Source: Spirometra erinaceieuropaei
Taxonomy: Eukaryota; Platyhelminthes; Cestoda; Diphyllobothriidea; Diphyllobothriidae
Assembly: GCA_902702965.1 (NCBI GenBank)
Contig: CACRXP010000088.1
Coordinates: 690,497 to 754,496, forward strand
Direction of reading: 5' to 3'
Length of the DNA: 64,000 bases
Within the stretch, counting starts at the first letter, position 1, and the number at the start of each line of letters is the position of its first letter. Below, piece by piece: positions 44,292 to 63,592 of this stretch. A program made the position numbers and the translations under genes. Under the pieces are notes generated by a model, which did not search any database, was not told the DNA's origin, and saw only the letters and a program-made list of their open reading frames with translations.

Positions 44292-44870
44292 CCCCGTACG
44301 GTGCCCACAGCATTCTTCCAAAGTTTTTCAATCCCGCGCTTGACGAACCCTGCAGGGTTTGACGCAGAGCAGTCATCGAATCAATTTTGGAAATATGGGT
44401 GGTTAATGAAAATTATTAATGATTTTTATATTGTACATATCGTTATATTTGAAAATTCTGTTATCATTTTCACTTAGGACGGAGGTGTTTTTTAATAACT
44501 TAAAAAAACCTCCAACTTCCGCTCTATTGGCTAACCAGACACACGAAGCAAATGAAATCAAAGTGCAGTTGAAATTGACGAGTTAGTTTTGGGTTAATTT
44601 CATGAGTTCAAAGGGGACTGACAGTACCCAAGGGGCGCTAAAATAAACCCATTCTATTCTATTCTATTCCATTCCAGTGAAATTAATTTTAAGTAACCAA
44701 AAGATGACAACACGATGGAACAAGGCTTAGAGAACATGGCGGATGCAAAAGAACCACCCAACCACGTTCCCCAATGACATTTTTGGTGAATTTTGCGACA
44801 TGAGATCTGGCATTGTCATGCTGCGAAATGACATCATTTCGAAAATTTGCCTGATTTTGTTTAATTATTT
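44292..44870 (-). pseudogene. mariner transposase remnant (left arm)
   Basis: Mirror of the right-arm remnant at 50480-50850; interrupted by the ~280-bp insertion at 44405-44690 and a ~25-bp insertion near 44715-44740. Confidence 0.6.
44405..44690 (+). mobile_element. 5'-truncated LINE tail inserted in left arm only
   Basis: Absent from the matching place in the right arm. It ends GCTAAAATAAACCC followed by three ATTCT units and a variant, the kind of 3' tail seen on flatworm non-LTR elements. It contains a hairpin at about 44481-44514 (GGAGGTGTTTTTT answered by AAAAAAACCTCC). Confidence 0.65.
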
Positions 44871-45199
44871 ATCTATACGGCAAAGCTTCTGACTGTACAG
44901 TTCTGCACCAGAGGTCTGGTTCTTTTCAAGCAAATCACAATAGCTAACTACCCGCGCAACAATATTCCACCAGACACACAGCATCCTCTTACAAGGATTA
45001 AGACCAGGTTTGGCTCGAGGTTATACTTGTTTGTTGGGATTTAACCAGTCTTTTTTATTTCCCTAACAGTAGTCAGCCTCAAAAATGTTTTACACAGTTG
45101 ACGGGCGAGACAAGATCGGACCAATAGTGAGGCACAAATAATTGAACGCTGAATCTTGTTGCTGTCACTCAAAGAGTACGAAACCCAAAAACCAAGAAT

Positions 45200-45835
45200 T
45201 TGGACCTTTCTCGTCGGTTACAGATGTCAGGCTCTTGCTAATTTGGCACATTTTGCCTCTCTGATTGATTCTCGAAATATTGGGGGACGCACAGCAAAGC
45301 TCGCTGTTGCGACTGCAAAAAAGAAAGATGTATTTATAAGACTATCATTTGCAGGGGACGCAGCGAGTGGACTAGTCAGACGACGCCCAACTACGGCTAT
45401 CACAAGAACATTCTCCGCTGCGAATTTACGCGTATGCTTCACAAACTCTCCCCACCTACGTCTGGGAGCTAAAGACAGACTACCGTTGGAGGCCACACCA
45501 ATGTGCACTTACTTATTCACTTGCTCCTGTGGAGCGGGATATGACGGCCTTACAACGGGACGCCTGGTAAAGTGAGTGCATGGACATATGCCCGCATGGC
45601 TAGACAGGGTTTAGACCCGATCGATTTCGATTTCTATTCTCGAACGTTTACTCGATTCGAATCACCGAGTCGATGTCAAGGAAGCATTTCAGGTTGTCTG
45701 CCGGACCCCAACATGCTTCTCTAAAGGCCTATGCCAGCGGATACAAGCAACGGCCGAGACAGTGGCTGTACGTCTAGCGTATCCAGCGTTATGCTGTCAG
45801 AAAAACCTGACACAGGCGCTCTCTCTTCCAAATTC
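45200..45835 (+). pseudogene. Penelope-like fragment (left arm)
   Basis: Contains GGRTAKLAVATAKKKDVFIR, a spacer like that of the 15395 copy, then [20 protein letters not shown], where the YIG of GIY-YIG is YDG. A tail around NHRVDVKEAFQVV, IQATAETVAVRL and CCQKNLTQAL follows after frame breaks. It runs straight into the LINE fragment that faces it near 45835. Confidence 0.75.
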
Positions 45836-46739
45836 CCAAATCATCTGTAGGAGTCTTCCACGAGGAACGCTATCAAACGTCTTCTTAAAGTAAAAGAAGA
45901 TAACATCCACTGGATGGCCCTGGTCTATGGCCCTTGTCAATTTTTCCAGTGAGTAAAGACTGCTTGTAAGACATAAGTGACCTCGAGGAAATCCGTGCTG
46001 AGCAGCACACAATAGGTTCCCCTGCCCCAGACATGACATTAAATGTCCTTTAGTAAGTCATTCCATGACCTTGCACAAAGTGCAGGTTAAACTAATGGGA
46101 CTGTTATTTTCAAGCTCCAGCCGAGATCCTCCTTTAGAGATTGGAGAAATATGGAATGTTTTTTATTCGTCTGGCAGTTCTCCTTCTTCCATGGACTTCT
46201 GAGTTATCATGGACACCGGTTCACACAGTCCGTCAGCTAATTCTGGGAGGACAAGAGAATGAATTCTATCTGGACCAGGTGATTTGGCAGGCTTCAGCCG
46301 GCGTATTTCGGTCCTTATCAACGTGGGTAAGAATAAATGATTGTATTCTAATGCGGGAGAAGAAGAAGTTTGTCGTTGGTCTACGTATGGCATAAGAGGA
46401 TTTGTGTCATGATTGAATATCGACCGAAAGAAACTGGAGAAGGCTGGTGCTTTCAGGTGATCATCTGTCTTAATTACTCCGTTTTGGGATCTCTGCGCTG
46501 GAATCGGGTCGCGATCGCTGTTGCCATTTCTTATATAAGTATAAAGGGTTTTAGGATGCTGCGGGGAGCTTTGTATTATGCATAGCTCATAGTTGTTTCG
46601 AAGTCTCTTAGCCCCGCGTTTACACACATTCCGCTGTCGCTTGTATTCCTTCATGTGTTCCGGGCTGTCTGTTTGTTGATTACGTCTCCACACTTTATTT
46701 CTCTTCTTAAACACAGTTTGCAGTTCATGATTTATCCAC
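45797..46739 (-). pseudogene. LINE RT N-terminal half (left arm)
   Basis: Minus strand: WINHELQTVFKKRNKVWRR, a Lys/Arg-rich region, KSPGPDRIHSLVLPELA (RT motif 1 region), a stop, then SPISLTCTLCKVMEWLTKGH, HGFPRGHLC and VIFFYFKKTFDSVPRGRL (RT palm, with the usual D in YFDF-like motif A replaced). Truncated before the FADD motif. Confidence 0.8.
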
Positions 46740-46985
46740 CGCGGACTGTTGCTTGTTTTCTTACGTTTGAGTAGACAGTTTAGATTAACGATTCTTTTGA
46801 CCAGTGCGCTGAATGTGCTCCGATGGTCGTTAACTGCTCCCTGCGATGTGGATATCCACGGTATTTCTGAGACTTGGGTTCGCATGCTAGAAACACCCTC
46901 CTTTCAGATAGTTGCTAGTAATTGCTCAGGTGAATCAGGTTGGGAAATCAAGGAATAATCGAATATGGTCACAATATGATTACTA

Positions 46986-48600: not shown

Positions 48601-48614
48601 TCATATGGTCCGCC

Positions 48615-49557
48615 GTGGATAAATCATGAACTGCAAACTGTGTTTAAGAAGAGAAATAAAGTGTGGAGACGTAATCAACAAACAGACAGCCCGGAACACA
48701 TGAAGGAATACAAGCGACAGCGGAATGTGTGTAAACGCGGGGCTAAGAGACTTCGAAACAACTATGAGCTATGCATAATACAAAGCTCCCCGCAGCATCC
48801 TAAAACCCTTTATACTTATATAAGAAATGGCAACAGCGATCGCGACCCGATTCCAGCGCAGAGATCCCAAAACGGAGTAATTAAGACAGATGATCACCTG
48901 AAAGCACCAGCCTTCTCCAGTTTCTTTCGGTCGATATTCAATCATGACACAAATCCTCTTATGCCATACGTAGACCAACGACAAACTTCTTCTTCTCCCG
49001 CATTAGAATACAATCATTTATTCTTACCCACGTTGATAAGGACCGAAATACGCCGGCTGAAGCCTGCCAAATCACCTGGTCCAGATAGAATTCATTCTCT
49101 TGTCCTCCCAGAATTAGCTGACGGACTGTGTGAACCGGTGTCCATGATAACTCAGAAGTCCATGGAAGAAGGAGAACTGCCAGACGAATAAAAAACATTC
49201 CATATTTCTCCAATCTCTAAAGGAGGATCTCGGCTGGAGCTTGAAAATAACAGTCCCATTAGTTTAACCTGCACTTTGTGCAAGGTCATGGAATGACTTA
49301 CTAAAGGACATTTAATGTCATGTCTGGGGCAGGGGAACCTATTGTGTGCTGCTCAGCACGGATTTCCTCGAGGTCACTTATGTCTTACAAGCAGTCTTTA
49401 CTCACTGGAAAAATTGACAAGGGCCATAGACCAGGGCCATCCAGTGGATGTTATCTTCTTTTACTTTAAGAAGACGTTTGATAGCGTTCCTCGTGGAAGA
49501 CTCCTACAGATGATTTGGGAATTTGGAAGAGAGAGCGCCTGTGTCAGGTTTTTCTGA
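48615..49557 (+). pseudogene. LINE RT N-terminal half (right arm)
   Basis: Base-for-base mirror of 45797-46739. The frame at 48526-49191 begins in spacer sequence and enters the arm at about WINHELQ. Confidence 0.8.
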
Positions 49558-50154
49558 CAGCATAACGCTGGATACGCTAGACGTACAGCCACTGTCTCGG
49601 CCGTTGCTTGTATCCGCTGGCATAGGCCTTTAGAGAAGCATGTTGGGGTCCGGCAGACAACCTGAAATGCTTCCTTGACATCGACTCGGTGATTCGAATC
49701 GAGTAAACGTTCGAGAATAGAAATCGAAATCGATCGGGTCTAAACCCTGTCTAGCCATGCGGGCATATGTCCATGCACTCACTTTACCAGGCGTCCCGTT
49801 GTAAGGCCGTCATATCCCGCTCCACAGGAGCAAGTGAATAAGTAAGTGCACATTGGTGTGGCCTCCAACGGTAGTCTGTCTTTAGCTCCCAGACGTAGGT
49901 GGGGAGAGTTTGTGAAGCATACGCGTAAATTCGCAGCGGAGAATGTTCTTGTGATAGCCGTAGTTGGGCGTCGTCTGACTAGTCCACTCGCTGCGTCCCC
50001 TGCAAATGATAGTCTTATAAATACATCTTTCTTTTTTGCAGTCGCAACAGCGAGCTTTGCTGTGCGTCCCCCAATATTTCGAGAATCAATCAGAGAGGCA
50101 AAATGTGCCAAATTAGCAAGAGCCTGACATCTGTAACCGACGAGAAAGGTCCAA
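49519..50154 (-). pseudogene. Penelope-like fragment (right arm)
   Basis: Mirror of 45200-45835, same stops and the same YDG change. Confidence 0.75.
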
Positions 50155-50479
50155 ATTCTTGGTTTTTGGGTTTCGTACTCTTTGAGTGACAGCAACAAGA
50201 TTCAGCGTTCAATTATTTGTGCCTCACTATTGGTCCGATCTTGTCTCGCCCGTCAACTGTGTAAAACATTTTTGAGGCTGACTACTGTTAGGGAAATAAA
50301 AAAGACTGGTTAAATCCCAACAAACAAGTATAACCTCGAGCCAAACCTGGTCTTAATCCTTGTAAGAGGATGCTGTGTGTCTGGTGGAATATTGTTGCGC
50401 GGGTAGTTAGCTATTGTGATTTGCTTGAAAAGAACCAGACCTCTGGTGCAGAACTGTACAGTCAGAAGCTTTGCCGTAT

Positions 50480-50850
50480 AGATAAATAATTAAACAAAAT
50501 CAGGCAAATTTTCGAAATGATGTCATTTCGCAGCATGACAATGCCAGATCTCATGTCGCAAAATTCACCAAAAATGTCATTGGGGAACGTGGTTGGGTGG
50601 TTCTTTTGCATCTGCCATATTTCATCTTTTGGTCACTCAAAGTTAATTTGACTGGAATATTTTTCATTAACCACCCGAATCTCCAAAATTGATTCGATGA
50701 CTGCTCTGAGTCAAACCCTGCTGATTTCGTCAAGCGCGGAACTGAAAAACTGCCTGAACTTTGGAAGAATGCTGTGGGCACCGTACGGGGACGCGTAATC
50801 GATTAATTCTATAAATACAGAAATGATGAAACTATTGTATTACTAAAAGC
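50480..50850 (+). pseudogene. mariner transposase C-terminal remnant (right arm)
   Basis: Reads HDNARSHVAKFTKNVIGERG (second catalytic Asp of the D,D34D triad), then a damaged PPYSPDLAPSDYH region, then NPADFVKRGTEKLPELWKN and GRVID with a stop. The third catalytic Asp motif is lost. Confidence 0.72.
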
Positions 50851-53833: not shown

Positions 53834-55371
53834 AAATAGAAGAGTTGGAGGCTAGTAAACTCCTTCATAGCATAAGTGTTGCAAAAAAGATTTAACAGGT
53901 AGAGATAACGATTAAAAAATTAAATTCTGTTTAGATTCTTGATTTAACCATTCTGTGAACACCAATGCTAATAAATGATATAGGAGGAACCTCTGAAAAT
54001 TCACATATTTTAACATGTTGTGCTTCCCATAGTGGTTATTATGATGAATGCTTTTTCTTATATGCTGTTAATAATATGAGGCACTGTGGTTGTGTACTGG
54101 TCGAGTATTGATTACCCAAATGTCCTCAACCACAAAGGGGGTTTGGTGCGGGTTCAAATATAATTATGCATCACAAAACTCTCTTAATACTCTACAAACC
54201 ACAATATCTACCAACAGCAGTCGCGGATGTCAAGTAATAATTCGTTGAAAGAAACATATGTATCCTTGGTCTTGTTGGACATTTTCAAAAATGATGTTAA
54301 GTATAATTTGGCAGTTTGTATTAGGACTTATTTTAGCCACTTGGTTTAGGATGAGCTTCTTTTTATCTACTAACAAGAGCAGAGTTTTATGAGCTTTTGG
54401 GACTTGGATAATGTTTCGGTGCCCTTTGTTATAAGTTTTTTTCAAAGGTGACCAAATGTTGTACGAGTACTGCACCACAAGCATTTCCTACACTCCGTGA
54501 AGTTACTTCTGTGCTTAATAAATTGAATTCATTATTTTTGTAAATTATATTTTTACTTATTTCCCTAACAGAGCATCCTGACTTTTGCGTTTATCAGTGA
54601 CTGTCTGAATAGTATAACTTAATGCCCAGAATTGCGGGGGCATTCAAGCGACAGCTGCCAAAATAGAAGTATCCAGAAATGTGTGCTGTAGATATCAGAA
54701 TTAGGATTTCATTGCTGAAGTCTGCAAACGCATATGGTGGCAGTCGTTTGTTGCCGAAAGGGCCTTCAGCCTCCATTCAAAACGACGCATAGTTGTGCGT
54801 CATCCAACTGAACTGGGTGATCGGTGTGCAGTGAAATCAAAAAATACCCGCCCTGGTCGTTTTTATGCAGCCTTGTGGAATTGAGCGGGGCGCGCTCCTC
54901 AAGCCTATGATCTCAACCCAACATCACCACTGCCTATTACATACTGCGAAAGATCTTGTTTTCGACTTAATTTTATCCTGCGTCGGATTTTTTGTGTATT
55001 CCCACGCGGTTATAGATTGACAGATCCCGTATGCAATCAAAACAACACATACGGCAGCTTCAGTAGCAGGTCGCAGTATCGATTTATACTGTAGCCTGAA
55101 ACCAACTCACCCAATTGGCTGCATCTGAATGCTGCTTTGGAATTATTGAATAATAATTCTATCGTTGACTGCTTTGGAGAATTCAGAATTACTGAGAGGA
55201 GTGAACGCATTCAGGATCTGAGACCTACCGGCAGTGACTTTGGCTTCCAGAAAAGTTCAGGTTTAGTCTCTTTTAATCAGAATATCAACGTAATATTGTC
55301 AGACCTCTCCTTAATCTTCATTTATTTTAATTCTTTTGGGCAGCAGAAGAGAAATTTCGAGTACTGAAAAT
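53834..55371. other. Intergenic stretch upstream of the micro-exon gene
   Basis: A minus-strand frame at 54230-54484 (YSYNIWSPLKKTYNKG) faintly resembles a LINE RT C-terminus but is too decayed to call. The region should contain the promoter of the gene at 55372; no element is recognisable. Confidence 0.45.
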
Positions 55372-55420
55372 ATGCTCTTTTCATCGTGGAAAATCGTATT
55401 GGCCACCATCTGTCTTTTCG
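55372..55420 (+). CDS. Candidate MEG exon 1: signal peptide
   Basis: ATG then MLFSSWKIVLATICLF, a short basic-free start with Lys and a hydrophobic run typical of a secretory signal peptide, ending one base into a codon at donor GTAAGC (55421). Phase 1 is exactly the phase used by every short exon downstream. In schistosome micro-exon genes the first coding exon likewise holds the signal peptide. A stop in all-frame context just upstream (TGA at 55365) separates it from the preceding frame. The link to the exons 4 kb away is inferred, not proven. Confidence 0.62.
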
Positions 55421-55501
55421 GTAAGCAAACGGAAAAGGTTAATGCCTTTTGTTAAAACATTTCGGTTCGGCATTTATTTGGGTACAGTCAAAATATTTTA
55501 G

Positions 55502-55510
55502 TGGCTTCAA
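55502..55510 (+). CDS. Possible 9-nt micro-exon
   Basis: TATTTTAG, then TGGCTTCAA, then donor GTAACA. Phase 1 would give V-A-S. Nine nt is within the range of schistosome micro-exons, but so short a match can be chance. Confidence 0.3.
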
Positions 55511-57285
55511 GTAACATGTTAAGACATGAGTGGTTGTAATAGCATAAACATGAACTTTAGCAGGACTACAGCTCGCAACGTACATACGTAGCATTTCAAA
55601 CACTAAGCAGGACCGTTAAAAACGTTCTATACAGCATGCGTGATATTGTTTATCTGGCAGCATTACGTTTACAAATACTGCCACCTTCAAATAACTTTTA
55701 ACGACTGCTTCTTAAGGGCTGGCAGTGAACGCGAGGAGGTTATCACCTGGTATGTTTATTTTATGGATATATTTCCTGATATTCAGACGTACGTTCAGAA
55801 AACTACCTTTTACCGGAAAACAAACATATTTATTGCTTTTCTATATTTTTTCCCACAGTACGATGGGCATGCATTAAAAAAATCTCTTTTTCGGAAAAAT
55901 GAAGGAAAAATTAATTAAAAATGAGACGCGATTAAGAAGACCACAATCTACTTATGTATGCTAGTGGGTTTTTGAAATGTATTTCGTTTTCTAAAAGTGC
56001 AATGAACTTGTGTGTATTTCAAATATGTCCCGTTAATTCTCCAAAGGAGACAAGCCACTGCCTTTTCCTTAAATAATGATATCACGCGGTAAAGACGTTA
56101 AGCACGAATTTTTAACAGTTATTTGTCATAGTTAGCTATCTAGATCGCCATCACAAAAAATTTACATTCTTTGAAATGAATAATAGAAAGTAAATAACTC
56201 GAAGTCTTCCCATCCATGCCGCTTGGTTTAAATGTCCCTAGAGTTGTGATGCAAATAGTTCAAAAAATGTTTCACGCCTTCAGTATCTTGTTTTATAAAT
56301 GCAACTAACATTGTTCGATGATGAACAAATTTTATTGAACAAAGTCCACAAGCCTTTCCAAGCGAATTTCTCATTTGGGGAAAATCGACATTGCTTCAGG
56401 TGGTCATGCGCAATGAACATTATGGTTGGATCTAATTGCTACAACCCTAAGAAGTGATAAAATGTTTAATATTTTGCAATTTACACCAAATGGTTCGTAA
56501 ATCCAATGCACTAGCTTGTGTTTTCAAGACGAACTCGTTTAACAATAATTCATAAATTCAGGTTTTCTAAAACAATAAGGCCAGTCTTATCAACGGAAAA
56601 TAAACTTAGTGCGTTATTCATTAAGTTTGCAAGCTTACCACGTCGAAAGCCCACCTTTGACAAATGACAATTCGGATAAGTTTTTAGCTCATTACAGCAA
56701 ATTAGTACATATGCTATATAAGACTTCTAAAATGCCTTCCGAAGGCAAACCGCCATTTTTTAAATCCTTCGCTTCGTTTCGTTAGCTTGTTCCAAACTTT
56801 TGGGTTCCACTACGGTCGTAAATTTAAGCCCAGTACCCCGCTTGAGTGTCGCTGATAGATTTAGTTTCATGTTTACGTTGGATACAAAAAGCAGGATTTG
56901 CCTTCTATATTCCACTTAAGACTCTCTGCAAAAATTGGTAGACGCGATAATGGCTAGGAAATTCCCCCTAAGTGCAGTTCTTTAACTGACAACCGATATT
57001 ATTTGGTCATTTCTGTTCAAAAATGCACCTGCTTCAGCTTTATCTCATGGTCCAGTCTAAAAATGAAAAGGTATCTTAATTATATGCACCACCAGTAAAA
57101 TATCTTCAGGAATTCAAAAACGAAGCCTTTATGTAAACCGTACTTACGGTACTTCCTCAGGGAGAAAGCCTGGTCTTGCAGCTTCACCTTATGAAGATTA
57201 TACCGTCGAGCTACTGAATTGTTTTGAGTAGGCGAGGTTACTCCGAAACAGAAAAGGGCAACCTTGGGTTCGAGTTTGCAGATAG
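55511..57285. other. Intron-like, AT-rich stretch without recognised feature
   Basis: No further short exon with good acceptor and donor was found by eye. Confidence 0.45.
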
Positions 57286-57289
57286 AGTC

Positions 57290-57540
57290 GGTCTTAGGGT
57301 TTGGGTTAGTGTGAGGCTGAGAATTGAGTTTACGGTTAGGACTTGCGTTAAGTCTAATCGTTCCGATTAGAGTTAGGATTTTGATTGCGGTTTAGGTTTA
57401 ATGTTAGTGTAGGGGTTAGGAATAGGGTTAGGGCTACGATACGGTTTGGGTTTGAGTGAGGGAAAGAGTTAGGGTTAGGTTTAGGATTGAGGCTATTTCA
57501 AGAGTTAGGGTAGGGGTTAGGGTTAACGTTACGTTTGGGG
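57290..57540 (+). repeat. Degenerate TTAGGG-like tract
   Basis: Units GGGTTAGGGTTAACG and GGTTAGGAATAGGG. No bounding GCTAGATCGCAGTTGG inverted repeats are visible here. Confidence 0.75.
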
Positions 57541-57885
57541 TTTGGGAAATCATTCACACTGCCACAGCCTTCCTCACTGCTGCTTACAGTGGTAGTCGTA
57601 GTCTACTCTAAACTGCCATCCATCGTTATCCTACATTTACAATTTCCATTCCTTACCGCAAGCCAAATAAACCTTGTCAGTATGCATTTGCGTTATTGGT
57701 GTCGTTTTGGCATCTAGGTTGCGCGCGTCCTAGACTTACCTCGAATTCATCTCTTGGTCAGCCGATACCTTCATCCACACCATGCCGAATGAACTTGACC
57801 ACGCGATGTCACTTACGATTGGCTGGTTAGATCCCCACCGTATTTTTATCATTTGCGCCTCAGTTTCACCTCATTGAAAGTTTCA

Positions 57886-58830
57886 TTGCACACTTCATTA
57901 GCTCATTGCCTTCAGTGTAGTTTCACAGCCATCTAATTGATGTGTCCGATTGCCCCACCGGTAAAACCTCTTTTGTCACCGTTCCCATATCACATACAGT
58001 CGGAGTTTAGCCATTTCAGGCGCGAATGCAAGACCATATCTAACCCCCTTGCTACATCGCGCTTCGACCCTTCGGCTTCACTCCCTCGTGGATGTGATAT
58101 GATAGTATTTCTAAATATATATCGCGGATTTTCCCCTCTTCCACAGATTTCTACGGATAATTAGTCTACCTACATTTGGTACATGCCTTTAAGTTGGGCT
58201 GATCAGTACACTGAAAACATGAAAAGATTGTAGAGGGTCATACTTCGTACTGAAGACGTATTTATAAATCAGAGGGTTCGAAAATGTTCTTGATAAATAA
58301 TGCGACCAGCAAGACAAGGCACCAATCGGTCTTCCGAAATGTGCCCCCGGTTTGCTTGCACACTTCATTAGCTCATTGCCTTCAGTGTAGCTTCACAGCC
58401 ATCTCACTGACGTGTCCGATTGTCCCGCCCGTAAACCTCCTCTACCACTATTCCCGTATCAGCAGTCGGCTTTAGCCATTTCAGATGCGCCTGCAAAACC
58501 ATATCTAACCCCCTCGCTATATTGCGCTTAGACATTTCGGCTTCAATCTCCCGTGGATAGATATGATAGTATATCTAAATATACATCGTGGATTTTCCTC
58601 TCGTCTGCAGATTCCTACGGACAGGGAATCTATCTACTTTTAGTACCTGCCGTCTAAGTTGGGCTGATCAGTACATTGAAAGCACGAAATGCTTATAGAC
58701 GGTCATATTTTGTACTGAAGACGTATTTATAAATTAGAGATTTCGAAAACGTTCTTGATCAATAGTGCGGCCAGAAAGACAGGACACCAGCCGATCTTCC
58801 GAAATGTGTCTCCGGCTCGCTTGGATGCCA
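57886..58830 (+). repeat. Tandem direct duplication of a ~473-bp unit
   Basis: CACACTTCATTAGCTCATTG begins both units (about 57889 and 58360), and CCAGC/CCAGA..AAGACA near GATCTTCCGAAATGTG closes both. Roughly 85-90% alike by eye. Confidence 0.85.
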
Positions 58831-59220
58831 CGGCGACCCCATGATAATATGGAAATGAACACATGATTATGTTTTCAAATTAAACAGACATGGAGAAAAT
58901 TGAGAAATGAAAAACATGGCGGGAAGCAGACGATTTCAAAAAAATCCCATAACTATTTGAAAATTGGGCGTCAATCTAGACAGACTGCTAAAATCCAAGC
59001 ATTAATGGGACTTGAATTTTTTGAAAATGTCTGTAGAGAAAGTGGAGGAGAAAACAGTTGGTCTCGTCTTTGCACAGGAATTCATTTGAGGCAGGCATAT
59101 TTTGACTCTTACTAGTACTTTTCCCGGTGATAGGGAATGAAAAACTTGACAGTTTTGAAATCGCCGGAAAGCGGTACGATGATTCAAGCGCGCACGCAAC
59201 AGTCGGCTTCTAGGTCTGAT
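58831..59220. other. Stretch before duplicated block A, no feature recognised
   Basis: A 71-codon frame at 58900-59115 has no known domain. Confidence 0.45.
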
Positions 59221-59562
59221 GATAACGTCGTGGACAAACTGATTGCTCCAAATCCATTCATCACTGCAATTACAAACAGAATCGTGGTTAGACAACCAAA
59301 TGACAACCACTAGTTAGCAAACCGGAAAAGAAGTACTTTCAGTCAACACTCGATATATGATTGAAAAAAGGATAAAGGAGAAGCGTAATCGCGGAAATAT
59401 ATAAAAAAGAGTATAAATTCGATGAAAAAGCACTTTAAAATTATTCAACCTTCTGAAAATGTCTAACAAACAGAAATACTGCACCGATAAGCGCAAATGA
59501 AGTAATCTGAGAAATGTTCACCATATGAATAATACAAAAATGTATATATTTTATCATTTTAG

Positions 59563-59595
59563 ATGAGGAGGAGGAGGACCTGGACGGGGAAAAAT
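59563..59595 (+). CDS. Candidate MEG micro-exon, 33 nt, acidic
   Basis: Acceptor CATTTTAG, donor GTAAGT. Read in phase 1 it gives DEEEEDLDGEK, strongly acidic. The copy at 61210 lacks exactly one codon's worth (3 nt) of the GAG run, so the frame is kept. Confidence 0.65.
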
Positions 59596-59728
59596 GTAAG
59601 TGGGATGACTGCAACTCAATAGCTTTATTAATTTTGTATGTTTACACAAAACCCGGCTGCACGAAAATAAACCAACCTAACTCTTGAAAAAACGGTAGCC
59701 GTTCATAATTCTGCTATGTTAATTTCAG

Positions 59729-59776
59729 GGCGCCAAAAGATTCCGCTTGCGGAAATCCACAATGTCAAATGTCCCT
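59729..59776 (+). CDS. Candidate MEG exon, 48 nt
   Basis: Acceptor TTAATTTCAG, donor GTACGT. Phase 1: RQKIPLAEIHNVKCP. The copy at 61373 differs by two silent and two replacement changes and no indel. Confidence 0.62.
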
Positions 59777-59840
59777 GTACGTACCGAATTACTTTTAATG
59801 TTCTGCTAATAATAAACCGATTTTTGCATTTATATCTCAG

Positions 59841-59878
59841 ATTCGTCTACAACAGAACTCATGCATTTTTGGAAATAA
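59841..59878 (+). CDS. Possible alternative terminal exon
   Basis: Acceptor TATATCTCAG. In phase 1 the sequence gives SSTTELMHFWK and a TAA stop. The duplicate at 61484-61521 keeps the acceptor, the frame and the stop (SSATGLVHFWK). It could end a shorter isoform, or be chance. Confidence 0.28.
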
Positions 59879-60375
59879 GCCTCCATAATCCAGTCGTTAA
59901 GTTGCGACATACGTGCACATACCTGGAATGCCTTTAACGTAGTGATAATGTTCTTTTACGCGTGAAGATTTGGCATACCCTGAAGACCATAGTGTTCTGA
60001 CTGACTATCTGTGATTCCAGTCTTAAGGGCGACGTCGTCGGCTGTCAGCATCAAGCAAGAGTTGCGCTGACTTTACGCACACCCTTTATAAATAATCAGG
60101 CCTTTTTCGTGTTGATGAAGTCGCATATACTAACTGGTGCGTGTTGTAGAAGACTGACAGGTCACATTCATTGTCCTCCTAGGCCATCACTCATAAATAA
60201 GCTTGGATCGATAAGCGGCCGTTGGCTAGATTCGCTGCATTCGCAATCACATGTTAAGTACGATCGATAACCGACAACCTGCCGAAAGCAGAGTTGCTCA
60301 ACTGGAGATCATCCGGTGAATAGAATGCGCCGCACATTAACTTATATTCAAAAGCATTTTTATTTGAAATTTCAG

Positions 60376-60408
60376 TGGAGTCTTCTACCATCGAAAGTGA
60401 AAACACGA
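60376..60408 (+). CDS. Candidate MEG micro-exon, 33 nt, Ser/Glu-rich
   Basis: Acceptor AAATTTCAG, donor GTAAGC. Phase 1: ESSTIESENT flanked by split codons. Copy at 63092. Confidence 0.62.
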
Positions 60409-60530
60409 GTAAGCCATTTTTATATTCTTTTCAGCTTAGCCAATTGTTGAATTATCCTGTAAGTGTATGATTGGCGTGGCCACTGTTTGTACATTACGAT
60501 ATTCTGGTCAAAAATCTACTCAATTAACAG

Positions 60531-60569
60531 AGGGTGATAACGAGGATTATATCTTGGAAGGGGAGTGAT
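60531..60569 (+). pseudogene. Broken copy of the 39-nt micro-exon
   Basis: Acceptor AATTAACAG is intact, but in phase 1 the frame GDNEDYILEGE meets TGA, and the donor GTGAGT of the sister copy is GATAGT here. Because its length is a multiple of three it could be skipped without harm. Confidence 0.6.
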
Positions 60570-60653
60570 GATAGTGAGATGACTGAAGATTAATCACAAC
60601 ATAACGATCATACGTTTATGTGACACCTGGATGCATTAGTTTTGAGGACCATT

Positions 60654-60695
60654 TGACGAGCACAGGCGTGCTTTTGATGAATTCTCGTCAAGCCA
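60654..60695 (-). ncRNA. Hammerhead-like relic inside block B, copy 1
   Basis: Minus strand: stem I TGGC/GTCA (one G-U), core TTGACGA, stem II GAATTCATC, AAAA for GAAA, stem III AGCAC/GTGCT with a four-base loop, site UC. Two core changes make activity unlikely. Confidence 0.55.
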
Positions 60696-60719
60696 TGACA
60701 TTTATATGGGAACGGGGTA

Positions 60720-60867
60720 CATAGTCAGACGCGTGAGCGATAATAGAAATCGATAATATTTTCTCTATGCATACAAACAGGGTGTGTGAATAGGGGGGGG
60801 GTGGCAGTGAGGGTTAGATAGAGCCTGGTCGCAAAGCGGGAGGAGAGGGGAAAACGGTTGGGTGATG
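60720..60867. mobile_element. Penelope-type terminal debris between the duplicated blocks
   Basis: Has the GAGCGATAATAGAAATCGATAA motif and a run of nine G, as in the terminal repeats at 15300-15390. Confidence 0.5.
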
Positions 60868-61209
60868 CCAACGTCGTGGACAAACTAATTGCACCAAATC
60901 CATTCATCACTGCAATGACAAACAGAATCGTGGTGAGACAACCAAATGATAACCACTAGTTAGCAAACCGGAAAGGAAGTACCTTCAGTCAACACTCGAT
61001 ATATAAATGAAAAAAAGATAAAGGAGAAGCGTAACCGCCGAAAAATATAAAAAGAGTATAAATTCAATGAAAAAAGCATTTAAAAAATTATTCAACCTTC
61101 TGAAAATGTCTAACAACCAGAAATACTGCACCGATAAGCGTAAGTGAAATAACCTGAGAAATGTTCTCGATATGAATAATACAAAAATTTAAATATTTTA
61201 TCATTTTAG

Positions 61210-61239
61210 ATGAGGAGGTGGACCTGGACGGGGAAAAAT
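61210..61239 (+). CDS. Candidate MEG micro-exon, 30 nt, acidic
   Basis: Acceptor CATTTTAG, donor GTGAGT. Phase 1: DEEVDLDGEK. In-frame shortened sister of the exon at 59563. Confidence 0.65.
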
Positions 61240-61372
61240 GTGAGTGAGATGACTGCAGATCAATAGCTATATTAATCTCGTATGTTTACACAAACCCTGG
61301 ATGCACGATAATAAAGTAACCCAATTCTTGAAAAAATGGTAGCCGTTCATAAGTCCCCTGTGTTAATTTCAG

Positions 61373-61420
61373 GGCGCCAAAAGATTCCACTTGCAGAAAT
61401 CCGCAATGCCAAATGTCCCT
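61373..61420 (+). CDS. Candidate MEG exon, 48 nt, copy 2
   Basis: Acceptor TTAATTTCAG, donor GTACGT. Phase 1: RQKIPLAEIRNAKCP. Confidence 0.62.
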
Positions 61421-61618
61421 GTACGTACCGCATTTCTCTTAAAGTGCCGTTATAACAAAGCGGATTTTGCATTTTAATCTCAGCTTCGTCTGCAACAGGA
61501 CTCGTGCATTTTTGGAAATAAATCTTCACAATCCAGTCGCTAAATTGCAATGTACGTGCACATGTCTGGGATGCCTTTATTATAGTGCTAATGTCAATGC
61601 TCTCCTAAAGATTTTGCG

Positions 61619-62866
61619 GCTAGATCGCAGTTGGTAGACAGGACTGGGGAGGCGGACAACCAGGTTCCCGTTGTGCGGGAATGGTGGGAAAGGGAGTTAT
61701 ATGTGTGGGGTAAATGGAAGGGCTGGTAGAGGAATGGTGGAGATTCTGGGGAAAAGTAAAGTTGCCAGGGAAAATGCTGGTGGTTACGATCGGAAGATGG
61801 CTCCCAAAAAAATCCGCCTAACCAAAGCAGCCTGTCTTACGGAACAGGTGGTAATACGGGGTTTTATGGGTGGTGGCTGGTCGGGATGTACGATACTAGC
61901 CGACGGAAAGCCTTATTTGAACAGGTGAATGATCGAAGTTGGGCCGCGCTCCGTTCCGTTCTTACAAAATGGGTCGCAAAGGCATTAAAGTGGTAACGGA
62001 CGAGTGAAAGGCGTATAATCGTCTTCCCTCAGGTCATCTACATTTCTCTGGTAACCACCCAAAGAACTTCAAGGACCCTACCACCGGACGGCACACCAAT
62101 GCCACTGAGGCATACTGGAGTAGACTGACAAGGAAATTCCACGAGGGACACCCTGTGTGTGGTCGAGCTGTGTGGGCTCACATAGACGAAGTACAGTATC
62201 GTCTTTGGCTTGGCCTCAATGCCATGTCTTTGACGGATGCCTGGGAACTGTTCCTGTCCCATATTGTGCAGACGCATCCTACTTGAAAGAGATTTTGTTT
62301 TGTAATGAACTGCCATAATGCGAATGTATGCCGTATGTTCAGGTGTACATCTGTAACGATGTGGGAGGCTGGGTAACACGACCATCGTCCATGTAACCTC
62401 CTGCGATGTTCGTTCGGTCAGCCCATGTTAGGTCGTCGCGGAAAGTCCAAGTAGTGCGTGAAAGTAGGCCTGCAACGGCTGATATAGCCTGAAGGCGTTT
62501 GAGTCCCCTGTTAAAGTTATTATTTCTAGGTAAGAGATTTTTTGGGTGCCATCTCCCTATTGTTACCGTACTGGGAAGTTTTAAGTAGGTGGAATAATGG
62601 CGGAAATTCAAACCCTACGCTTAACCCTAAAATACAACCCTGACCGCAACCGTAAAGCCTATTCCTAAGCTTCAAAACCGAAACGTAACCAAAATCCTAA
62701 AATCCAATTCTAACCAAAAACCTAGCCATAACCCTTACCCTAAACTTGAGCCTAACCCTAACGGGAACCTACACCCTAACGCTAACACTGAAACCTGACC
62801 CTAAAACGCAAATCCTAAACCTAAAACTTAACCTACGCCTAACTCTAACACTTCCTAGACCCAACA
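61619..62866. other. Insertion between blocks A2 and B2, TIR-like start and CCCTAA-like end
   Basis: Begins GCTAGATCGCAGTTGGTAG, the end sequence of the telomere-like TIR elements, but the following body (61645-62600) is unlike theirs and the matching right end was not found. Frames at 61671-61928 (plus) and 62038-62385 (minus, 115 codons) are unrecognised. The last part, 62610-62860, is a CCCTAA-like tract. Confidence 0.6.
62610..62860 (-). repeat. Degenerate CCCTAA-like tract
   Basis: Units CCTAACCCTAACGG and ACCCTAACGCTAAC. Confidence 0.75.
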
Positions 62867-63091
62867 GACTGACAGGTCGCTTTCATAGTCCTCATAGGCC
62901 ATCAGTCATTTATAAGCTTGGATCGATAAGCGGTCGTTGGTTAGATTCGCTACATTCGCAATCACATATCAAGTGCGATCGAAAACCGACAAACTGCCGA
63001 AAGCAGAGTTGGTCAACTGGAGAGGATAAGGGTGAATAGAATGCGCCGCACATCAATTAATATTTAAAGGCATTTTCATTTGAATTTTCAG

Positions 63092-63124
63092 TGGAGTCCT
63101 CTACCACCGAAAGTGAAAACACGG
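63092..63124 (+). CDS. Candidate MEG micro-exon, 33 nt, copy 2
   Basis: Acceptor GAATTTTCAG, donor GTAAGT. Phase 1: ESSTTESENT. Confidence 0.65.
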
Positions 63125-63253
63125 GTAAGTCATTTTTTATTCTTTTCAGGCTTGCATTGCAGACAGTTGTTGAATTATCCTGGAAATGCATAATTGACAT
63201 GACCACTGTTTGTACATTACGATTTTCTGATCAAACAGCTACTCAATTAACAG

Positions 63254-63292
63254 ACGGTGATAACGAGGACTATATCATGGAAGGGGAGAGAT
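63254..63292 (+). CDS. Candidate MEG micro-exon, 39 nt, intact copy
   Basis: Acceptor AATTAACAG, donor GTGAGT. Phase 1: DGDNEDYIMEGER, acidic. The sequence from GGGGA through the donor region (GTGAGTGAGAT) resembles the end of the exon at 61210, so the two exon types may be old duplicates. The gene probably continues past the window. Confidence 0.65.
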
Positions 63293-63376
63293 GTGAGTGA
63301 GATAGCTGAAGATTAATCACAACATAACTATCATACGTTTATGTGACACCTGGATGCATTACTCCTGACGACCATT

Positions 63377-63418
63377 TGACGAGCACAGGCGTGATTTTAA
63401 TAAATTTTCGTCGAGTCA
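63377..63418 (-). ncRNA. Hammerhead-like relic inside block B, copy 2
   Basis: Minus strand: stem I TGAC/GTCA fully paired, core TCGACGA, AAAA for GAAA, stem III TCAC/GTGC partly broken. Inactive by core changes. Confidence 0.5.
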
Positions 63419-63592
63419 CGGCATTTATATAGGAACGAGGTACAAAGTAAAACATAAGTGAAGAAGAAGGGTCGAGCACGGGAACGCGGTGTGTGTTGTC
63501 CTGAGCTTTTAGACTCGTACAGGAGTCCATCGTCGGAGGTAGTAGCAGCGGCAGCAGCAGACCAAACGACAGTTATACGGCACGTAGGCCAA

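Follow-up and report, generated by a model that had tools for sequence, protein, structure and literature searches.

Micro-exon genes (MEGs) are regarded as a flatworm means of making variable secreted proteins. The described systems closest to the locus reported here come from cyclophyllidean tapeworms and from Schistosoma: in S. mansoni MEG-26 an internal duplication repeats the exon-length pattern (PMC5825161), and in MEG-3.1 a micro-exon duplication is tied to a transposable element (PMC8293314, PMC4350168). One review confines the gene class to schistosomes (PMC8293314); MEGs are already known in tapeworms, with 52 in Hymenolepis microstoma and 35 in Echinococcus multilocularis among the cyclophyllideans (PMC7653826). 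The locus lies in a window, the whole stretch of 64,000 nucleotides (nt) analysed from the tapeworm Spirometra erinaceieuropaei (assembly GCA_902702965.1, contig 88, CACRXP010000088.1, positions 690497–754496), and continues beyond its end. We read it, with a probability of roughly 0.82, as one tapeworm MEG in which a predicted signal-peptide exon is followed by a cassette of 33, 39 and 48 nt exons present seven times, and whose exons would be variably skipped to yield secreted acidic repeat proteins. The array thus read would be a further gene of the known class, its cassettes unusually regular.

The locus resembles Schistosoma MEG-26 (SmMEG-26.2, SmMEG-26.4 and SjMEG-26.4) in combining a signal peptide, here predicted, with internal duplication; as far as the two can be likened by description, one internal repetition was reported there, whereas seven units are present here (PMC5825161). 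With MEG-3.1 it shares the duplication of micro-exons within a MEG, but a single 9 bp exon is concerned in that gene and whole cassettes in this one (PMC8293314, PMC4350168). Runs of exons shorter than 70 nt and divisible by three, amounting to at least half of the exons, are common to the cyclophyllidean MEGs and this locus. Ten cyclophyllidean genes from one region have a common N-terminal motif and have been attributed to tandem gene duplication, whereas here a three-exon cassette is duplicated within one locus (PMC7653826). In the open-licence literature, which omits most subscription papers, no match was found for micro-exon genes with Spirometra, and micro-exon genes together with exon duplication were found in schistosome work only.

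The predicted exons of the window, numbered from its first base, and two exons beyond it are as follows.

55372..55420, plus strand: E1, predicted first coding exon of 49 nt, beginning with ATG and encoding MLFSSWKIVLATICLF, the beginning of the predicted signal peptide; phase-1 end, with GTAAGC as donor
55717..55749, plus strand: E2, predicted micro-exon of 33 nt, LAVNARRLSP; open in phase 1 between the acceptor gactgcttcttaag and the donor gtatgt
59563..59595, plus strand: A1, acidic exon EEEEDLDGEK of 33 nt, a variant of type D
59729..59776, plus strand: B1, exon RQKIPLAEIHNVKCP of 48 nt, from profile and splice-site comparison
60376..60408, plus strand: C1, exon ESSTIESENT of 33 nt, from profile and splice-site comparison
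60531..60569, plus strand: D1, decayed copy of 39 nt with the donor gone and an in-frame stop
61210..61239, plus strand: A2, acidic exon EEVDLDGEK of 30 nt, one codon less than A1, a D-type variant
61373..61420, plus strand: B2, exon RQKIPLAEIRNAKCP of 48 nt, from profile and splice-site comparison
63092..63124, plus strand: C2, exon ESSTTESENT of 33 nt, from profile and splice-site comparison
63254..63292, plus strand: D2, exon GDNEDYIMEGER of 39 nt; the array carries on past the window, with D3 to B7 at contig 88 761695–776610
Contig 88 768374–768406 and 776262–776294, plus strand: C6 and C7, with a GC donor (gcaagc) replacing GT

An assembly gap of 6592 N (contig 88 754497–761088) lies directly after the window end, and the array resumes past it on the same strand (contig 88 761550–776610), in the order C-D-B from unit 3 onward. 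A profile search over 113 kb of contig 88 (its gap counted in) together with 40 kb of contig 360 found seven copies each of B, C and D and two of A on the former, with a single C and a single D on the latter. Exon length is constant for each type (B 48 nt, C 33 nt and D 39 nt, in seven of seven copies each); A1 (33 nt) and A2 (30 nt) are altered copies of D. Among the 21 B, C and D copies, a number that here and in the codon-position and substitution counts below includes the dead D1 and C3, an AG acceptor is present in 20, a GT donor in 18 and a GC donor in two, and the phase-1 frame is open in 20.

Together with E1 and E2 this makes 25 exon copies. Of these, 23 are open and have a GT or GC donor and, except for the first exon E1, an AG acceptor. 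The model built from these 23 usable predicted exons extends over 30,743 bases, from E1 to B7. Every one of the 253 possible forward joins among them is stop-free. Introns measure 112–133 bases within a cassette and 599 to 7906 bases between cassettes, the longest containing the gap. Joined in full, the exons predict a mature protein of 282 residues with an isoelectric point of 4.24, including 71 acidic residues, 32 Lys/Arg, 37 Ser/Thr and 7 Cys.

The differences among the seven copies are of a coding type. On average, two copies differ by 0.188, 0.179 and 0.345 at codon positions 1, 2 and 3, respectively, and by 0.356 in the ungapped columns of the C–D intron; the third-position excess has a permutation p of 0.00055 (0.055% of 20,000 permutations). 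The exon copies align over 120 columns with no change of length, while the C–D intron alignment is gapped in 43 of 104 columns; mean identity across units is 76% in exons vs 64% in flanks and introns. The seven units form 21 pairs, in 19 of which the synonymous rate (dS) is computable; over these the mean ratio of the nonsynonymous rate (dN) to dS is 0.34, and dN is lower than dS in all 19. Stops interrupt 8 and 14 of the 22 live micro-exons in the two other frames and none in the phase-1 frame. The exon segments, judged by this pattern, are coding, and over the seven copies their frames bear the mark of purifying selection. That the locus is a flatworm micro-exon gene had been proposed by the initial annotation, made from the DNA of the window; the anatomy fits, and the purifying selection on exon frames over seven copies speaks for it as well. 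A coding pattern over repeated cassettes can reveal such a gene from DNA alone, without a long open frame. The initial annotation had put the longest frame at 118 codons; the longest stop-to-stop frame overlapping 55372–63292 in fact has 129 amino acids (62038–62427, minus strand).

The segments listed by that annotation, a 49 nt E1 followed by segments of 33, 48, 33, 39 (decayed), 30, 48, 33 and 39 nt, all lie where it placed them. E1 ends in phase 1, and the seven live segments after it are AG/GT-bounded and open in phase 1. The eight segments are all present; as independent observations they do not stand, being two copies of one four-exon block, and because this block was duplicated in tandem in the genome, the agreement of eight segments counts as that of four. 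The two blocks occupy 59217–60730 and 60863–63453, and their matching parts start about 1645 bases apart at first and about 2720 bases apart farther on, the second copy carrying about 1.07 kb extra. Their exons, D1 included, are identical at 92% of positions (138/150), vs 84.6% (1027/1214) for the rest (Fisher p 0.014), and the sole exon gap between them is one whole codon, in A. Two mostly non-coding stretches, 59217–59407 (92%) and 59437–59575 (93%), of which the second overlaps exon A1 by 13 bases, match between the blocks just as closely as the exons do. By itself, this two-copy comparison is suggestive only.

For tapeworms, an operational rule defines a MEG by at least seven exons, with micro-exons (<70 nt and divisible by three) making up at least half of them and forming a run of at least four (PMC7653826). 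The gene predicted here from DNA has 23 usable exons, 22 of them micro-exons, a share that further 3' exons might reduce. With D1 taken as dead, seven micro-exons (E2, A1, B1, C1, A2, B2 and C2) follow one another before the gap, with D2 as the eighth, and the uninterrupted run after the gap numbers 14. All 22 micro-exons are symmetric, nine are 36 nt or shorter, and all 22 fall within the range of 3–81 bp given by a later S. mansoni survey (PMC10526429).

A gene of this anatomy could also be spliced in one fixed way. It would then encode an ordinary repeat-containing secreted acidic protein, and its small symmetric exons would be a side effect of duplication and not a means of regulated skipping. 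The array plainly arose by repeated segmental duplication, which symmetric exons survive with the frame intact. Fixed splicing nevertheless seems somewhat unlikely: E2, which is outside the repeat, is likewise short and symmetric, the predicted gene falls under the tapeworm rule given above, and, if D1 and C3 are now unspliced, the loss of individual exons has left the frame undisturbed.

If the locus is a variably spliced MEG, a single promoter before E1 would serve the whole 31 kb, the exons would be spliced as drawn, and skipping, suggested by the kind of gene, would be used to diversify the product. The gene would have grown through repeated duplication of the C-D-B cassette, each full cassette adding about 40 residues in its C, D and B segments. 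C would supply a Ser/Thr/Glu segment, D an acidic segment around a Tyr (His in one copy) and B a basic stretch that contains hydrophobic residues and a single Cys. The acidic surroundings of the D-exon Tyr would fit tyrosine sulphation, which is a guess. Because all junctions are in phase 1 and no forward join creates a stop, gain, loss or skipping of an exon would alter the length of the protein and keep its frame. Such tolerance would let genomic duplication and alternative splicing both diversify the protein, and the gain of a cassette or the loss of a single exon, as in D1 and C3, would leave the remaining exons usable. By analogy with the schistosome MEGs, the product may have a role at the host interface (PMC5825161, PMC4350168, PMC8293314, PMC10526429). 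Going further, we suggest only tentatively that this diphyllobothriidean locus is a cassette-array MEG, with one promoter, one signal peptide and at least seven serial three-exon cassettes. As any usable exon can be joined in frame to any later one, cassette copying in the genome and splicing would in that case jointly generate secreted repeat proteins in many combinations from a single locus. With seven side-by-side cassettes of graded divergence and dead exons among them, micro-exon birth, divergence and death may be readable in one gene.

The 5' end of the model consists of E1, whose peptide is MLFSSWKIVLATICLF with one base left over, and E2. The initial annotation had recognised E1 as a signal-peptide exon and had then passed directly to the segment at 59563, missing the 33 nt E2 at 55717–55749. 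The residues LAVNARRLSP of E2 plausibly complete the predicted signal peptide. The signal-peptide cleavage rule, applied to V-N-A at positions -3 to -1, places the putative cleavage after VNA. Judged by hydropathy alone, the predicted signal peptide peaks at a mean of 2.78 across 11 residues. Hydrophobic segments that begin with ATG and have a phase-1 donor occur four times on the plus strand of the window, E1 included, and not at all on the minus strand; since there are four such plus-strand segments, E1 by itself is not rare, and its weight comes from its position before the array.

Used as a query against the whole genome (758,707,415 bases in 1932 contigs; all genome-wide match counts are lower bounds), the stretch 55300–55790, from E1 to E2, gave one match. 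This bears on whether two or more adjacent genes share out the array, which we consider distinctly unlikely. The 6592 N gap falls between D2 and C3 and could contain a 3' end as well as a further first exon; readable sequence from 745000 to 781100 of contig 88, however, has no second signal-peptide-like first exon, save one hydrophobic ATG frame just past E2, and the single match of the E1–E2 stretch likewise speaks against a second 5' end.

Several observations weigh against the reading of the locus as one MEG. Thirteen of the 22 micro-exons exceed the classic limit of 36 nt in the schistosome description. In S. mansoni MEGs, a motif FL-phi-phi-F-X6-W-p-(K/H/R) follows shortly after the signal peptide (PMC10526429); it has no match in the 304-residue joined prediction, and because of its absence the gene is not placed in any schistosome MEG family. 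A piece of the second-clade motif has no match in the same prediction either. Exon identity falls below intron identity in two of the 21 unit pairs (1-4 and 2-4), and unit 4 may be a mosaic. Between units 6 and 7, the closest of all pairs, dN/dS is 0.77 (dN 0.071, dS 0.092; few changes). The evidence for E2 consists of its splice sites and frame, with no second copy for comparison, and the 6.6 kb gap might conceal another 5' end. A 3' terminal exon was looked for among candidates from 776640 to 783000 of contig 88, and none was established. Finally, D1 (donor lost and a stop) and C3 (acceptor lost) are dead, and C6 and C7 depend on GC donors.

The last of these points are what would be expected of a formerly functional array that is now a decaying relic, losing its splice sites and frames: of the 25 exon copies, D1 and C3 are dead and another two rely on GC donors, and the copy on contig 360 has lost its C donor. 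We regard decay of the whole array as very unlikely, given that 23 of the 25 copies remain open with acceptors and donors as described, and that the closest units, 6 and 7, keep B, C and D intact, although their changes (dN 0.071, dS 0.092) are too few for a test. The contig 360 copy itself is evidently a relic of the exon units.

The likelihood that these are chance GT-AG segments in a transposon-rich repeat is practically nil: the region is filled with repeats, the window alone holds two copies and some non-coding stretches match exons in likeness, but constant exon lengths and the third-position excess over seven copies rule out a chance origin, and the units were found at this locus and as one relic only. 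A dispersed repeat or transposon was rejected on the single E1–E2 match and on the result of a unit 6 query, which found at least seven places, of which six are on contig 88 and the other is on contig 360, and missed unit 1. With the C–D block as query, at least eight places were found, all but one of them (seven) on contig 88 and the remaining one on contig 360.

The window has no Rfam match at gathering scores, and 11 chosen frames, out of 81 listed in the window, gave no Pfam match above the cut-off. The 115-residue prediction from the nine live window exons gave two weak Pfam matches below the cut-off (expectation values (E) 0.043 and 0.085); the same prediction, which comprises the exons before the gap, found nothing at E≤10 among PDB sequences or in a large protein collection. 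One frame of the window, which Pfam did not match, we read as retrotransposon-like; it had no match at E≤0.001 in the same large collection. Since this frame went unmatched too, the collection may contain few or no flatworm proteins.

Among the 3' exon candidates, one that would encode LAFLLRRLFSPSAFR followed by a stop is paralleled by a similar stretch after B6, as seen by eye; it is left unclaimed because this region shows no conservation downstream of the remaining B exons. A splice-site scan ranked the known exons near the top, and returned 233 plus-strand segments against 226 in the minus-strand control, whose best score was 16.1; one unrelated plus-strand segment scored 17.9, amid the known exons. 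The scan is circular, because its matrices were trained on the known exons, and it was not used as evidence. Farther downstream, a minus-strand frame at contig 88 782839–783180 has a weak match to the LYR family (E 0.038, below the cut-off) and is perhaps the next gene.

Other features of the array and its introns are structural. Units 6 and 7 lie in a 5 kb tandem duplication (contig 88 767823–772761 and 775708–781088), mostly about 87% identical, with 98% identity over the last 433 bases; its 3' half contains many 60-base stretches at 97–100%, perhaps the result of later conversion. In the extra 1.07 kb or so of the second block there are frames at 61638–62286, the later of which has a weak match to the Pfam ISXO2-like transposase domain (E 0.031, below the cut-off); no inverted repeats of at least 14 bases were found in 61450–62950. 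The intron between E2 and A1 contains two tandem copies of a 465-base unit (57886–58823), and degenerate TTAGGG-like repeats were seen by eye in the predicted introns at 57230–57540 and 62600–62860, on opposite strands.

Elsewhere in the assembly, triosephosphate isomerase exons lie in parallel on contigs 388 and 820 of the same genome, which suggests uncollapsed haplotypes. The best PDB match of one triosephosphate isomerase exon from this genome is 6oog, the Taenia solium enzyme, at 100.2 bits, with the runner-up at 83.4. Upstream of the gene, at 44733–46746 and 48608–50621 of the window, there is an inverted repeat of 2014 bases, whose arms are 100% complementary and lie 1861 bases apart, flanked by further arms at 89–94%; it is either a palindrome of very recent origin or a product of the assembly.

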